A DNA stretch of 64,000 bases from an uncultured Gammaproteobacteria bacterium (lineage in GTDB: Bacteria; Pseudomonadota; Gammaproteobacteria; Pseudomonadales; Porticoccaceae): NCBI GenBank assembly GCA_913058345.1, contig CAJXQR010000003.1, forward strand, positions 62,001 through 126,000, in the 5' to 3' direction. The translations under genes and the position numbers were made by a program. Position 1 is the stretch's first letter; every line of letters begins with the position of its first letter. The notes below the pieces were generated by a model. The model was not told the DNA's origin, ran no database searches, and saw only the letters and a program-made list of their open reading frames with translations. Shown here piece by piece: positions 41,966 through 49,835 of the stretch.

Positions 41966-42232
41966 TTACTGCTCCGTGAGTTGTTGGAATTCTCTTTCGG
42001 CGCGTTCGGCGCGTTTTTTTATAATCTCTTTTGATTGCTCGTCGCTGAGAATTTGGCCGCTGGGCACTATTGAGAGGCTGATTGAGGGCTCATTGGTTTT
42101 AAAGTAGCGCTCGTCCCCCTCGTCGCTAGGTATCGGCTCGATGGCCACGGCCTTGCTCATGGCGCTTATCAGGGGTACCACGTCGCTGGGATTAATGGCG
42201 AATTGCTGAAAGCCGATGGTGGCAATAATCAT
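41966..42232 (-). CDS. Hypothetical early phage protein
   Basis: 88 residues, not recognised. The C-terminal third (QSKEIIKKRAERAEREFQQL) is predicted coiled coil. Its start overlaps the LuxR-type gene stop by 4 bp. Packed position in the PL operon supports it. Confidence 0.6.
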   Translation of the reverse strand: MIIATIGFQQFAINPSDVVPLISAMSKAVAIEPIPSDEGDERYFKTNEPSISLSIVPSGQILSDEQSKEIIKKRAERAEREFQQLTEQ

Positions 42233-42657
42233 GCTGTTTGCTCCGGGTTGTTAGCCCCGCAAGGCCAGCTTAGGGCGCCGGTGTCGGGGTCAATGGTGAA
42301 GAGGTCGCTGTCTGTTTTGCTGCGCCCGGTGCGACGGGCTTTACCCCCGGCCCCCCGGCGTGCGATGGCGGTGTTTTGGTCGAGCAGGCTTTCAGTAATA
42401 GGCAGCCAAAGGCAAAGGCCCAGAAAAAGGCAGGCGACGTATTTGATGTGGCCTTGTGCCCACAGCAGACTGACGGCGTGGGGTGTGGTTTCGGCGTTGA
42501 GTTTGTTTTTGGCCTGGTCCACATAGCCGTAGGTGGTGTCGCGGGCGATGCGCATAACGCGGGCAGCATCTTTGATGGTTTTGCCCTGGGCGACAAACAG
42601 CATGGCTTGTTCTTCGCGAGGGGTGAGTAGTCCGTTGGTGTTGATTTGTGTGTTCAT
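42229..42657 (-). CDS. LuxR-type HTH protein with membrane segment, first PL gene
   Basis: 142 residues. A LuxR/sigma-70-region-4-like HTH is at about 9-60 (LTPREEQAMLFVAQGKTIKDAARVM). A short hydrophobic segment KYVACLFLGLCLWLPI (about 72-87) then suggests membrane association. The start ATG at 42657 lies 7 bp after a consensus -10, with no ribosome site, so the transcript may be leaderless. As the first gene of the leftward early operon it occupies the place of lambda N. Its role is unknown. Confidence 0.7.
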   Translation of the reverse strand: MNTQINTNGLLTPREEQAMLFVAQGKTIKDAARVMRIARDTTYGYVDQAKNKLNAETTPHAVSLLWAQGHIKYVACLFLGLCLWLPITESLLDQNTAIARRGAGGKARRTGRSKTDSDLFTIDPDTGALSWPCGANNPEQTA

Positions 42658-42664
42658 GGGAAAT

Positions 42665-42706
42665 ATATTAGTGATACAAATTAAACCTGTCAATAGTATT
42701 GCTAAT
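42665..42706 (-). promoter_or_regulatory. Prophage PL promoter with operator
   Basis: On the minus strand TTGACA (42688-42693), 17 bp and TATAAT-like TAATAT (42665-42670) form a near-consensus sigma-70 promoter. The operator ATTAGCAATACTATTGAC (42689-42706) overlaps the -35 box. It matches the PR operator ATTAGCAACGCTATTGAC at 45533-45550 in 16 of 18 positions, so CI/Cro should control both. Confidence 0.85.
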
Positions 42707-42758
42707 AATAATTTGCTGACCTGTGTGGCATGATTGCTTTTTTAGCAGGATTGGCTGA

Positions 42759-43112
42759 ATGAAACGGGTAATGGCGGTGCTGTTTTTTTTGTCGGCCTAT
42801 GGTGTTGCGAGTGCCGGCGATGAGGATGATCCTTGTTTATGGGACTACGAAATAGCAGAAATGATGATGGATAGCAGGCAGGCCGGTGTATCTATGCCCT
42901 CGCTGATGAAGGTGGGCAGAAACTTTGGGACAGGCGTGTCCGGACAGGATGTTGTTCAGGCGGAGGCGGCGTCAAGGTTTGTGATAGAGGTGGTCAGATC
43001 TGCTTTTGATGTCTCGTTGTATTACAGTAAAAGTAGTAAGGCGCGCGCAATAAAAGAGTTTTCCAATGCTTGGTATGCAGCATGTTTACGTGAATATGAT
43101 GAGGGAGATTGA
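42759..43112 (+). CDS. Exported small protein, prophage moron
   Basis: 117 residues with an N-terminal signal peptide (MKRVMAVLFFLSAYGVASAG). The mature part has two Cys (DDPCLW and AACLRE) that could form a disulfide in the periplasm. It is transcribed against the surrounding leftward operon and forms a pair with the next gene, which is typical of lysogenic morons. No homology recognised; a role in host envelope or superinfection is a guess. Confidence 0.65.
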   Translation: MKRVMAVLFFLSAYGVASAGDEDDPCLWDYEIAEMMMDSRQAGVSMPSLMKVGRNFGTGVSGQDVVQAEAASRFVIEVVRSAFDVSLYYSKSSKARAIKEFSNAWYAACLREYDEGD

Positions 43113-43115
43113 AAG

Positions 43116-43721
43116 GTGGCGTTAGTTAAGTGCAGGGAGTGTGGTGCGCAGGTGTCAAAAAAGGCGGCGGCCTGTCCGGAGTGTGGGGCGCCGGCGAAAA
43201 AGAAAACGTCGATGTTTACCTGGCTGGTGCTGGTTGTGATTGGTGCGGTGATCTTCGCGAACTTGTCATCGCCGCCAGACCGCGCTTCGGTTGCAGCGCC
43301 CGTGGTGTTAACGGATGAGCAGAAGAAGGCGCGTGAGGCTGAGCTGGTCGTCGAATTAAAAACCATACCGGCGGCAGAGGTGCAGAAAAACCTTGATGGT
43401 TACCGGGAGCTGGCCGAGTTAAACCCGGCAAATGAGAAATATCACAAAAAAGTAGCGTACTACGAAGAAAAAATGACGCGCTATAGGCAAATTCAAGCGC
43501 AGTTCAGCGCATGGTCTGGCGCGCATAAGGATCTTGAGCGGTATATAAAGAAGCGTTTAAAAGACCCGGATTCTTACGAGCATATCGAGACAGGTTATAA
43601 CGATAACGGTGACCACATTATGGTGCTGATGCGCTATAGGGCAAAAAATAGTTTTGGGGGTTTTGCGCTTGAGTCTGTGCGGGCGCGTTGCACGATTGAA
43701 GGGCAATGCACGGTGCTTTGA
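43116..43721 (+). CDS. Zinc-ribbon, membrane-anchored protein, prophage moron
   Basis: 201 residues. An N-terminal zinc ribbon (CRECG and CPECG, residues 6-24) is followed by one membrane segment (FTWLVLVVIGAVIFANL), a coiled-coil region and a conserved-looking C-terminal domain with YIKKRLKDPDSYEHIETGY. The zinc ribbon would face the cytoplasm. The C-terminal motif resembles host zinc-ribbon membrane proteins of unknown function. GTG start, 3 bp after the exported partner. Confidence 0.75.
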   Translation: MALVKCRECGAQVSKKAAACPECGAPAKKKTSMFTWLVLVVIGAVIFANLSSPPDRASVAAPVVLTDEQKKAREAELVVELKTIPAAEVQKNLDGYRELAELNPANEKYHKKVAYYEEKMTRYRQIQAQFSAWSGAHKDLERYIKKRLKDPDSYEHIETGYNDNGDHIMVLMRYRAKNSFGGFALESVRARCTIEGQCTVL

Positions 43722-43744
43722 CAGTGTTTTGTTATTGAGCGGAT

Positions 43745-43772
43745 AAAAAGCCCTGCATTGCGGGGCTTTTTT
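43745..43772. terminator. Rho-independent terminator after the moron pair
   Basis: AAAAGCCCTGCATTGCGGGGCTTTTTT: a GCCC(T)G / CGGGGC stem flanked by A- and T-runs. It closes the rightward moron pair and, read the other way, the leftward gene at 43790-44353. Confidence 0.85.
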
Positions 43773-43789
43773 GTGTTCTGGTTGTCTGG

Positions 43790-44353
43790 CTATTCGTCAA
43801 TGAGATCGGGATAGTAGGTGCTGGCTTTATATTCGCAGTGCGGGTTGGTTTTATAAACTAGCTGTTCAAGGAAAATAGAGACAAAGTGAAACACCGCAGA
43901 TGGCTCTATGTTGCCCTGGCTAAAGGCTCTTATGGTGTCGATATAGGCGTGGTCTGATAAGTAGATAGGTTGGTCGATGGTGACCTGGGTGTCGTTGTTG
44001 CGAAGCAGTGTTGAGTTCTGGAGAATGCAGATGGCGACGTCAAAGGCGATAACTGCGTTTGGGTTGTGTTCTGGGCCAGATAATTGTGTGCCTTCTTTAA
44101 GTAAAGGGCTTTTAATGGGTTGCTTCGCTAAAAACCAGACAATAAAGTTGGCCGCTTTTTTGAATGTGCTGGCCTTGGCTGCACCGCCTTCGTAAGGGAA
44201 GTTGTTGGTGTAGTTTGATATGGTCTCTAACAATGCGTCGGTGTCTACAGATATGATGGCATCGGGGTCTGATGCTTTGGCGAAAGCGCTTATGTGTGTT
44301 AAGAGATTGTTGTAGTCGTCAAAAGGTTTCTCGTTGTAGATCATTTTTTTCAA
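43790..44353 (-). CDS. Hypothetical phage protein
   Basis: 187 residues, no function recognised. It is mainly helical (SDHAYIDTIRAFSQG, FHFVSIFLEQLVYK) with no export signal or membrane segment. It sits between two terminators, so it may be a stand-alone accessory gene expressed in the lysogen. Confidence 0.6.
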   Translation of the reverse strand: MKKMIYNEKPFDDYNNLLTHISAFAKASDPDAIISVDTDALLETISNYTNNFPYEGGAAKASTFKKAANFIVWFLAKQPIKSPLLKEGTQLSGPEHNPNAVIAFDVAICILQNSTLLRNNDTQVTIDQPIYLSDHAYIDTIRAFSQGNIEPSAVFHFVSIFLEQLVYKTNPHCEYKASTYYPDLIDE

Positions 44354-44360
44354 TCCATAA

Positions 44361-44386
44361 AAAACCCCCGCGTAGAAGGCGAGGGC
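44361..44386 (-). terminator. Rho-independent terminator, leftward
   Basis: Minus-strand CCCTCGC, a short loop, GCGGGGG and T6 form an intrinsic terminator between the gene starting at 44611 and the gene starting at 44353. One G-U pair is in the stem. Confidence 0.75.
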
Positions 44387-44401
44387 TGGTTGCGATACTG
44401 C

Positions 44402-44611
44402 TTAAGAGGTGGCTGCTAGCGATGCTTTTGCCAAGCGTGAGGCGCGCATTGTGATTTCGCTGGTGGTTCTGGTTTTTATTTGCCCGGTGGCGTTGGTTGT
44501 GCCTAGCGATTTGGCTGGTATTTTTGCCTTAATGGCTTTTCCGTAATCGTCTGTTTTAACGTTGGCCTCAATAAGATTGTCAAAAACAACCTCTTTGTTG
44601 TCGGCATTCAC
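44402..44611 (-). CDS. Small hypothetical phage protein
   Basis: 69 residues, not recognised; basic with Thr/Ala-rich C-terminus. GTG start with a good AGGAGAG ribosome site. It is driven by its own consensus promoter and closed by its own terminator, so it is probably strongly expressed. Confidence 0.65.
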   Translation of the reverse strand: MNADNKEVVFDNLIEANVKTDDYGKAIKAKIPAKSLGTTNATGQIKTRTTSEITMRASRLAKASLAATS

Positions 44612-44679
44612 GATATCTCTCCTTTTTTCTGCAGTTGTCCCGCTTTGTGTTTTTAAGTGCCGCCCAAAATCGGGCGCGA

Positions 44680-44708
44680 ATTCTATTGATTTTGTTTTGG
44701 TATGTCAA
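44680..44708 (-). promoter_or_regulatory. Consensus promoter for the small gene at 44402-44611
   Basis: TTGACA (44703-44708), 17 bp and TAGAAT (44680-44685) on the minus strand. The predicted leader of about 60 nt contains a CGCCC / GGGCG hairpin (44661-44676). No CI-type operator is visible here, so it may be active in the lysogen. Confidence 0.75.
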
Positions 44709-44769
44709 GGCATCAACACGCCATTGCGCCACTATAGCATAGTTAAGAATGCGGTAAAGCGGTGCTGGA

Positions 44770-45498
44770 TCACGCTTGGCGCAGGCTGGCAGCCACGACC
44801 ATGGTAATGGGTTGTATGCGGGTGATGTTGGTTTTTTGGACGGTCATGGCGGGGTGTTGGTCGTTAATGCTGCCGAAGGTGTATTCCTCGTCGGTCTCAT
44901 TGTAGAGGCGGTATTCTTTGATCATGCAGAGCCCGTCGGTGGTGCAGACGAGCACGTTTTCGCCCTGGTGTACGGGGCTGTTGGGTTCTATGACAACAAT
45001 CTGGCCGTTTTTTATAGCGGGGGCCATACTGTCGCCGCGCACACGCAGTGCGTAGGCGTCGGGGTCTTTTGATGACGCTACGATAAATCCGTCGCCGTGT
45101 TCAAGGTGACCCATATCATCCCAATAGCCATCGGGGCCTGCCTGGGCGTTGCCGACAATGGCGATTCTGGTGTTATATGTCCTGCTAGGTTCGCGTATGC
45201 GCTGCGTAGTTTGCTCGCTATCTCGAGTGAAGGCATAGTCAGCAATAGAAGGGCGAACCTCGGTAGGGTCGAAACCAAGCCTGTTGGCTAGCCAAACCAT
45301 TCGTTTATCGGGTATTTTTGTAATTCCTTTTAGCCACTGCCCGACGACGCCCTGGGTTATGCTCATTTCAATAGCAAGCTGTTCTTGGGTTAGGTTTGGT
45401 TCTGCGGTTTTTTTCTGCTGAAATTTGTTATCGACAAAAGCGGCTTCTGCTGCCATTAATCGAGCTTTATCAAGGATATCTGGGGTTTCTCTTTTCAT
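44770..45498 (-). CDS. CI-like repressor, S24/LexA family
   Basis: 242 residues. An N-terminal HTH (LTQEQLAIEMSITQGVVGQWLKG, about 37-59) is joined to a C-terminal S24 peptidase. The self-cleavage Ala-Gly is in NAQAGPDGYWDD; catalytic Ser is in RGDSMAP and Lys in LCMIKEY. RecA-stimulated cleavage should induce the prophage. The ATG has no strong ribosome site and lies 7 bp from a TAATAAT box, so its mRNA may also be leaderless. Confidence 0.93.
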   Translation of the reverse strand: MKRETPDILDKARLMAAEAAFVDNKFQQKKTAEPNLTQEQLAIEMSITQGVVGQWLKGITKIPDKRMVWLANRLGFDPTEVRPSIADYAFTRDSEQTTQRIREPSRTYNTRIAIVGNAQAGPDGYWDDMGHLEHGDGFIVASSKDPDAYALRVRGDSMAPAIKNGQIVVIEPNSPVHQGENVLVCTTDGLCMIKEYRLYNETDEEYTFGSINDQHPAMTVQKTNITRIQPITMVVAASLRQA

Positions 45499-45508
45499 AG
45501 CCTAATTA

Positions 45509-45574
45509 TTAGCCTTTGTAATAATAAAAACTATTAGCAACGCTATTGACTTAAATAATTCGCAACGCTAATAT
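45509..45574. promoter_or_regulatory. CI/Cro operators and PR promoter
   Basis: Three related 13-bp sites start at 45509 (TTAGCCTTTGTAA), 45534 (TTAGCAACGCTAT) and 45559 (TTCGCAACGCTAA), exactly 25 bp apart; the consensus TTAGCAACGCTAA is a pseudo-palindrome. PR is TTGACT (45546-45551), 17 bp, TAATAT (45569-45574). The second and third sites overlap its -35 and -10. The first site is next to the probable PRM -10. The array parallels lambda OR1-OR3. Confidence 0.88.
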
Positions 45575-45580
45575 TCAGGA

Positions 45581-45790
45581 ATGAATGAAATAAGTTTAAG
45601 CAAGTTTTGCGAAGGTAAAACTCAAGAGCAAGTTGCTAACGAGCTTGGATACTCCCAAGGCTGGATTTCACAAACTTTAAAAAATGGTCGTGATGTGGTT
45701 ATTCGCCTGCATCCGCAGGGGGGGCTGTCTGTTGTAGAGCGGCGCGTGCTGCGAGACGTTGAGGCTTTGTCAGTAGTTGCCGCCCAGTGA
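45581..45790 (+). CDS. Cro-like repressor
   Basis: 69 residues with an HTH (KTQEQVANELGYSQGWISQTLKNG, about 13-36). It is divergent from the CI-like gene and directly behind PR. The start ATG begins 6 bp after the -10 box, so the transcript probably starts at or beside the A of ATG. AGGA touches the start codon, too close to act as a ribosome site. Confidence 0.85.
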   Translation: MNEISLSKFCEGKTQEQVANELGYSQGWISQTLKNGRDVVIRLHPQGGLSVVERRVLRDVEALSVVAAQ

Positions 45791-49571: not shown

Positions 49572-49770
49572 AAATGCCCCGATTTGCCCCGGATGCCCCG
49601 TTTTTTTTGCAAAGCCGGGGCAAGCTAAGCCCTTGAAAACCAAGGGAATGCCCCGCATGCCACGCTTGCCACGGGGTTTCCCGCGCGCACGTGTGTATGT
49701 TTTTAAAATAAAAAAACTCTCCCGTGTGCGCGTAAACAGGCGTGGCATGCGGGGCATGCGGGGCAAATAG
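49561..49770 (+). CDS. Doubtful small ORF in repeat region
   Basis: 69 codons starting inside the primase 3' end. The peptide is Arg/Pro/Gly-rich and mirrors the DNA repeats (GMPRMPRLPRG, RGMRGMRGK), so the open frame may be a by-product of the repeats. No ribosome site. Confidence 0.2.
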   Translation: MLRKNAPICPGCPVFFAKPGQAKPLKTKGMPRMPRLPRGFPRARVYVFKIKKLSRVRVNRRGMRGMRGK

Positions 49771-49835
49771 AATTAAATCAATAACTTACGTTGCCCCGGT
49801 TAGGGTTTAAAAACGGGGCAACCGGGGCAGGGTAA
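49574..49835. repeat. GGGGCA-repeat region with long dyad, candidate phage origin
   Basis: About ten copies of TGCCCCG or its complement CGGGGCA occur in 260 bp, directly after the primase gene. An 18-bp perfect inverted repeat ATGCCCCGCATGCCACGC (49648-49665) / its complement (49740-49757) encloses a loop of about 74 nt that itself contains CGCGCAC / GTGCGCG arms and an A/T-rich core of A and T runs. Iterated sites plus an AT-rich core next to the primase suggest an origin. Attenuation or a structured RNA are alternatives. Confidence 0.55.

Follow-up and report, generated by a model that had tools for sequence, protein, structure and literature searches.

The genetic switch of phage lambda combines divergent genes for the repressor CI, a protein with an S24 domain, and for Cro with three operators located between them (OR) and three further operators (OL) at the promoter PL. 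These operators cover the −35 and −10 boxes, their spacing is similar to that described below, and CI binds them cooperatively. In the Rac prophage of E. coli K-12, three palindromic TTAGGC/GCCTAA repeats lie between the divergent genes of the repressor RacR and of YdaS, and RacR forms three complexes in EMSA; the protein is described as at best a very distant relative of lambda CI (PMC5700373).

RacR/YdaS is the closest experimentally studied relative that we found for the operator architecture reported below. The racR-ydaS intergenic region of strain MG1655 reads TTAGGC-ACA-GCCTATTGACA...TTAGGC-GTC-GCCTAATATT and, as in our locus, the pair of sites is fused to a promoter (TTGACA-18-TAATAT). 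In contrast, the Rac half-site is one base longer (TAGGC), the two sites are 26 bp apart with an 18-bp promoter spacer (counted by hand), and RacR has 158 residues. Escherichia phage Rac-SA53 (DicA/DicC-type) also resembles our locus, as divergent HTH genes flank the sites TTAGCCTCACTAA and ATAGTCAGACTAT at a distance of 25 bp, but its proteins differ and its sites have 1 and 2 mismatches to TAGC-N3-GCTA. Hence, it fails a strict pair test (two sites with at most 1 mismatch each, 20-30 bp apart) and passes only when up to 2 mismatches are allowed. The strict test gave a pair in none of the 13 named-phage regions scanned out of 15, the other two (MR13 and Aurca01) having been judged by eye only.

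The stretch of DNA analyzed here (the window) is 64 kb long and comes from an uncultured gammaproteobacterium. It holds a region which, judging from the genes described below and from phage-type ORFs, is a prophage immunity region (Table 1). The operator region is flanked by divergent genes for a CI-type repressor and a Cro-like protein. The CI-like repressor matches Pfam PF00717 (8.3e-16) and HTH_3 (2.8e-4, below the curated cut-off), and in PHROGs it matches phrog_4, transcriptional repressor (8.8e-27). Compared with solved structures at a limit of E ≤ 0.1, it matches lambda repressor alone (3bdn, E 0.0011). Its residues A120-G121, S157, and K194 are invariant in a two-sequence alignment with the CI of a sibling prophage presented below; from the LexA/CI family, we take them to be the cleavage site and the catalytic pair, respectively. 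A search of genome contigs confirmed no close relatives of this protein; among 390 genomes of the order, 41 match at E ≤ 0.001, its own genome included, and the best match in another genome (9.4e-15) is of 35% over residues 109-196, which correspond to the peptidase part, the remainder being at 1.2e-6 or weaker. The Cro-like protein matches Pfam Cro PF09048 (1.6e-5) with 25.3 bits, under the cut-off of 32.7, as well as Pfl6 Cro (2pij, E 3.3e-4); in PHROGs it matches only phrog_2119, a family of unknown function. Predicted structures of the two proteins, with mean pLDDT of 41 for CI and 53 for Cro, were too poor for use. The first gene of the PL side, searched as 42229-42654 (that is, devoid of the initial Met), had no match among named phages at E 1e-5. 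Further genes downstream of it include a DUF2303 gene, and a PriCT-2/Toprim primase-like gene lies to the right of the immunity region.

Table 1. Coordinates of the features of the immunity region, numbered from the first letter of the window.
Feature	Position	Strand	Description
CI-like repressor	44770..45498	-	HTH and S24 peptidase domain; profile and structure matches
Cro-like protein	45581..45790	+	Divergent from the CI-like gene
First PL gene	42229..42657	-	LuxR/GerE-type HTH protein; GerE 9.3e-7; phrog_3282 "sigma factor" 1.5e-11
PR	45546..45574	+	TTGACT - 17 bp - TAATAT; promoter scan
PL	42665..42693	-	TTGACA - 17 bp - TAATAT; promoter scan
PRM (putative)	45505..45533	-	Weak TAGTTT - 17 bp - AATAAT; by reading
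OR1	45559..45571 (centre 45565)	+	TTCGCAACGCTAA; in the PR spacer, overlaps the PR -10
OR2	45534..45546 (centre 45540)	+	TTAGCAACGCTAT; ends on the first T of the PR -35
OR3	45509..45521 (centre 45515)	+	TTAGCCTTTGTAA; lies over the PRM -10 region; the weakest of the OR sites
OL1	42693..42705	-	TTAGCAATACTAT; one base in common with the PL -35
OL2	42668..42680 (centre 42674)	-	TTAGTGATACAAA, minus strand TTTGTATCACTAA; overlaps the PL -10

A sequence-only reading had proposed three 13-bp sites 25 bp apart, and its coordinates were correct. It had also noted that an 18-mer at PR, ATTAGCAACGCTATTGAC (45533-45550), returns at PL. Indeed, this 18-mer is found at 42706-42689 of the minus strand as ATTAGCAATACTATTGAC, with two changes, and it overlaps the TTGAC in both places. 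Of the single matching OL site that was claimed, OL1 is real, but a second site, OL2, had been overlooked; its centre is exactly 25 bp from that of OL1. The operators at OR and OL have a common 13-bp form resembling TTAGC-N3-GCTAA, and their mismatches to TAGC/GCTA number 0 in OR2, 1 in OR1 and in OL1, 2 in OR3, and 3 in OL2.

Like lambda, the locus has divergent CI-like and Cro-like genes, a repressor with an S24 domain, and operators over −35 and −10 boxes, three of them at OR and others at PL. Unlike lambda, the first PL gene is LuxR-like, two OL sites were found instead of three, and the cro and PL-gene mRNAs appear leaderless. The operators are also different, TTAGC-N3-GCTAA in the window vs. 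TAtCACCGCcaGTGaTA for the lambda consensus (PMC10742460). Going by the features that can be tested in sequence, which are found here with a Cro Pfam score below the cut-off, the switch of the window is best read as one of the lambda CI/Cro kind.

The promoters PR and PL are superimposable. In each, one site (site A) has a base in common with TTGAC and the next (site B) overlaps TAATAT. Measured from the site centres, the −35 box begins at +6 of site A and the −10 box at +4 of site B. With a 17-bp spacer, this register places the operator centres 25 bp apart, which amounts to a simple rule, operator spacing being the promoter spacer + 8. Promoter geometry accounts for the spacing most simply and, in our reading, explains it best. 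The "25-bp helical phasing" of the sequence-only reading found no support, since 25 bp correspond to about 2.4 helical turns, which is no whole number, and the spacing fits a promoter spacer of 17 bp. The putative PRM escaped the promoter scan that gave PR and PL; the start codon of CI falls at the +1 expected from it, and the centre of OR2 is 42 bp upstream of this codon.

An equal density of sites elsewhere in the prophage had been named beforehand as counting against operators. Isolated sites do occur at chance density: with ≤3 mismatches allowed, the window has 20 matches vs. 19.6 expected, and there are, in the whole genome, 132 matches per strand to TTAGCNNNGCTAA at ≤1 mismatch vs. 124 for the reversed control. 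The density of single sites was therefore rejected as evidence. The paired arrangement, in contrast, goes beyond chance. A symmetric matrix built from OR1-3 and scored across all positions of the 64 kb recovers the held-out OL1 at the 4th rank (OL2 alone is 32nd) and the OL pair as such. At 25 bp, OR2-OR1, OR3-OR2, and OL2-OL1 outscore all other pairs with 38.7, 35.9, and 23.9; the fourth reaches 10.1, and the top pair at the other spacings from 18 to 32 bp reaches 16.8. In 200 whole-window shuffles, the held-out OL pair was never equaled at 25 bp, and 3/200 equaled it when any spacing from 18 to 32 bp was accepted; local shuffles of 42600-42760 gave no equal pair in 5000. In the reverse hold-out, a matrix made from OL1-2 ranks OR2 3rd, OR1 4th, and OR3 13th. 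One exact TTAGCAACGCTAA is present elsewhere in the host chromosome (G000:C4:52417-52429); as an isolated single site, it is probably due to chance.

Across the stretches compared, the IMG/VR contig 3300038761_000007 does not differ from the window and adds no information, and L031, L034, and L035 are identical to it over 10.7-12.2 kb (L038 and L041 are from the same contig). Only one independent sibling was found (L032, the same as L033; the identity of the two contigs, designated L037 and L036 in the comparison, extends over 10,858 bases). Its CI is 59% identical overall to that of the window, with a largely conserved C-terminal half and a different N-terminal half. The small gene after cI and the PL gene are 90 and 78% identical, respectively, and another gene is found at the Cro position. 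Homology at the DNA level covers 43789-45171 and starts again from 45984; on the left-hand side, it resumes at 42670, on the −10 of PL, and there is also a 43-bp block at 43744-43785. The sibling operator reads ACTA-N6-TAGT, with two OR sites 24 bp apart and one PL site; no clear third site of this type was found at its OR. The three occurrences of the motif in the 16.4-kb sibling locus are all at OR or PL, and this number was reached in 0/500 shuffles, a generous figure because the motif was chosen after reading the sequence. The two prophages differ in the DNA-binding half of CI, in Cro, and in both operator regions, as would be expected of partners. The proposal of a lambda-like switch, with CI, Cro, and one type of operator at OR and OL, is supported, and the joint change in the sibling resembles a natural swap of specificity between sibling prophages.

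Similar pairs of sites recur in viral contigs. When two exact WTAGC-N3-GCTAW sites were required at a distance of 25 bp, 89 stretches matched; among the 80 listed, there were 88 matches and 61 distinct 38-mers, 16 of which lie between two divergent HTH genes, as judged by reading the translations. The remaining 38-mers adjoin other genes, some at OL-like positions. An earlier scan for exact TTAGC pairs had given 19 stretches, mostly repeats or coding sequence by reading; in L051/L057 (identical over 9,218 bases), the pair is between divergent HTH genes. A BLAST comparison of the L051 repressor with the CI of the window gave no useful similarity (E 2.5). Contig L051 has one TAGC pair at 25 bp between its CI-like gene and its Cro-like gene and another such pair at a putative OL, at a distance of 662 bp; apart from these four sites, the 9.5-kb locus has no TAGC-N3-GCTA. 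The sites of the window itself are missed by the exact scans, since they need one or more mismatches; they otherwise have the arrangement that defines the class, with a site A holding the first T of the −35, a site B overlapping the −10, and a distance in the range of 24-26 bp.

When the spacing was allowed to vary from 20 to 30 bp, at least 120 loci were obtained. Among the 80 listed there are 77 distinct pairs, of which 37 are spaced by 25 bp, 12 by 24 bp, 8 by 21 bp, 8 by 22 bp, 3 by 26 bp, 3 by 27 bp, 2 by 29 bp, and 1 each by 20, 23, 28, and 30 bp. A −35-like TTG/TGA box abuts the listed pairs in 30/37 cases at 25 bp, 9/12 at 24 bp, 3/3 at 26 bp, and 1/1 at 23 bp, compared with 1/3 at 27 bp, 1/8 at 22 bp, and 0/8 at 21 bp. 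With the three scans pooled (137 loci), 57/81 distinct 25-bp pairs have a promoter in the exact register of the window vs. 0-5/81 in 50 shuffles that permuted the non-site bases, the 81 being inflated by the inclusion of the scan fixed at 25 bp. At 26 bp, the same register is kept in 4/5 pairs, whose promoters have an 18-bp spacer. For pairs at 24 bp, it is ambiguous, with 7/10 having the −10 at +5 with a 17-bp spacer and 3/10 at +4 with a 16-bp spacer, and the score favors 17. Promoter-like sequences in other registers accompany 5/13 pairs at 22 bp and 1/12 at 21 bp. A third site on the −35 side (≤2/8 mismatches) was found among 56 oriented promoter pairs most often at 23 bp (7), 25 bp (6), and 42 bp (5). 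All these counts are partial, coming from the 80/89 and 80 of at least 120 stretches listed, and they refer to distinct site pairs and not to independent origins, many contigs being near copies.

In genomes at large, the frequency of TAGC pairs is near chance: among 369 genomes of the bacterial class, 3 have a pair at ≤1 mismatch, that of the window included, vs. 1 for the reversed control. The other two are G734 and G715. In the latter, the pair (L156 1501-1538, G715:C59) is accompanied by a PL-like TTGACT upstream of another LuxR-type HTH gene, by reading.

CI and Cro of the window also have a feature in common. A Q-G-x-x-x-Q pattern is found in the recognition helix of the two proteins, and both have Gln at the helix position that aligns with an Ala of lambda repressor. 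The position of the second Q was followed in other phages. Since a first HTH profile had been seeded mostly with members of the class, the class side was redone with a profile seeded without class proteins: in 30 distinct helix tails near TAGC pairs (one being a second match in a protein already counted), this position is Gln in 23, His in 4, and Gly in 1, and it is not covered in 2. In comparison phages without a TAGC pair, Gln is found in 1/12 helices, here aligned with the class-seeded profile, which aligned 20/29 comparison and reference proteins, the two of the window included. One of these 12 helices is from MR13, judged pair-free by eye. Those of H4907, K-12 YdaS, L032, and Rac-SA53 were set aside; they have Q in CI and Cro of H4907, YdaS, CI of L032, and CI of Rac-SA53, and R in Cro of Rac-SA53. 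As the helix rows are related to each other, the link between Gln and TAGC is a lead, not proof. If true, it extends the recognition code of CI and Cro.

Taken together, these data make it very probable in our opinion that the window carries a lambda-type switch in which five operators serve both CI and Cro, promoters are built of operator pairs, and the spacing is set by promoter geometry. A chance likeness of AT-rich promoter sequences, with no operators involved, is hardly credible. Single sites are at chance density, and the sites overlap promoter boxes, which are mutually alike anyway; however, the hold-outs between OR and OL and the shuffles argue against chance, the match between PR and PL extends upstream of the −35, beyond the boxes, and similar pairs are found between divergent HTH genes in other phages. 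It may also be imagined that the sites are used by just one protein, CI or Cro. In PY54, unlike in the window, a single Cro operator is reported; Cro of this phage binds OR3 only, and its CI sites are marginally alike (PMC4488713). This reading seems improbable to us, if less so than mere chance, because the Q-G-x-x-x-Q pattern is common to CI and Cro of the window and the sites are alike at OR and OL.

The most serious competitor concerns the spacing alone: 25 bp might have been selected for cooperative binding of CI through contacts between dimers, the fit to the promoter being secondary. The OR3-OR2 distance is also 25 bp, even though OR3 is outside PR, the commonest distances of a third site in the class are 23, 25, and 42 bp (7, 6, and 5 of 56), and the operators of lambda, where CI is cooperative, are similarly spaced. 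Against these points stand the 2.4 helical turns, the fixed promoter register in 57/81 pairs vs. 0-5 in shuffles, and its maintenance in 4/5 pairs at 26 bp with an 18-bp spacer. In addition, the putative PRM would give OR3-OR2 nearly the same geometry. We therefore hold selection for cooperativity to be possible, but rather unlikely.

According to the preferred reading, with spacing set by the promoters, CI-like dimers and Cro-like dimers would bind the five operators, three at OR and two at OL. As each promoter is made of an operator pair, CI at OR1/OR2 and OL1/OL2 would block PR and PL. CI at OR2 would probably activate the weak PRM, and Cro at OR3 would probably shut it off. On SOS induction, CI would be cut between Ala120 and Gly121, S157/K194 being the catalytic pair. 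The sites, their registers, the similarities of the genes, and a sibling with another specificity at the two operator regions are observed here; in this scheme, we infer binding, site preference, activation of PRM, cleavage, and transcription starts from sequence. The locus would thereby offer a predicted operator for a phage lineage for which the searches run found no named relative. Seen more broadly, it varies a circuit known from textbooks; its generalization may interest specialists.

The start codons of CI and Cro are 6 nt past their respective −10 boxes, and that of the PL gene is 7 nt past, at distances at which mRNA synthesis should begin. Hence, going by the transcription starts deduced from the promoters, the Cro and PL-gene mRNAs of the window appear to be leaderless. 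There is a precedent for a leaderless cro, as RACE revealed that the cI and cro mRNAs of PY54 are both leaderless (PMC4488713). Among 70 promoters of the class, the first ATG of an ORF is located 5-9 nt after the −10 in 15 (for example, L080, L113, L115, L164, L171, L181, L114, and L195), 25-60 nt in 29, 10-24 nt in 4, 0-4 nt in 1, and more than 60 nt in 2, with none in 19; this count considers ORFs of at least 40 codons and ATG only, has no chance control, and skips one more promoter at a contig end. It suggests that part of the TAGC class may have leaderless early lytic mRNAs. If true, a leaderless cro mRNA would tie the mode of translation to the lytic decision.

Whether the recurrent pairs amount to a widespread and so far unnamed class of phage switches, in which a promoter-fused TAGC-N3-GCTA pair, spaced according to the promoter spacer, goes with dissimilar repressors, CI and Cro having a common Gln, and partly with leaderless mRNAs, is in our view an evenly balanced matter. 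No description of a TAGC operator class was found in the open-licence literature searched. Part of it may already be covered by Hall et al. (2005), who reportedly dealt with Cro helices and half-sites. The "new operator consensus" announced for the window was only partly right, because TAGC-N3-GCTA pairs recur in viral contigs and a TTAGGC version is known in Rac (PMC5700373).

Finally, some other features of the region deserve mention. On the minus strand, 44680-44708 is a strong promoter-like sequence, TTGACA-17-TAGAAT (11/12), ahead of a small gene at 44402-44611. As no top-ranked operator lies at this promoter, the small gene may be expressed in the lysogen. Just past the primase-like gene, 49585-49829 can be aligned with its own reverse complement (68.5% matching in 251 columns), forming a long imperfect palindrome that is possibly related to an origin or a hairpin. 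Genes starting with a zinc ribbon lie within the immunity region or adjoin an operator pair in several otherwise unlike contigs, at 43116-43721 in the window, from ~6734 in L032, near 1363 in L072 (where the gene runs off the contig end), and near 4676 in L100; the ribbon was tested with a profile in the window protein and recognized by reading in the others. The zinc-ribbon gene is a possible lysogenic-conversion gene.
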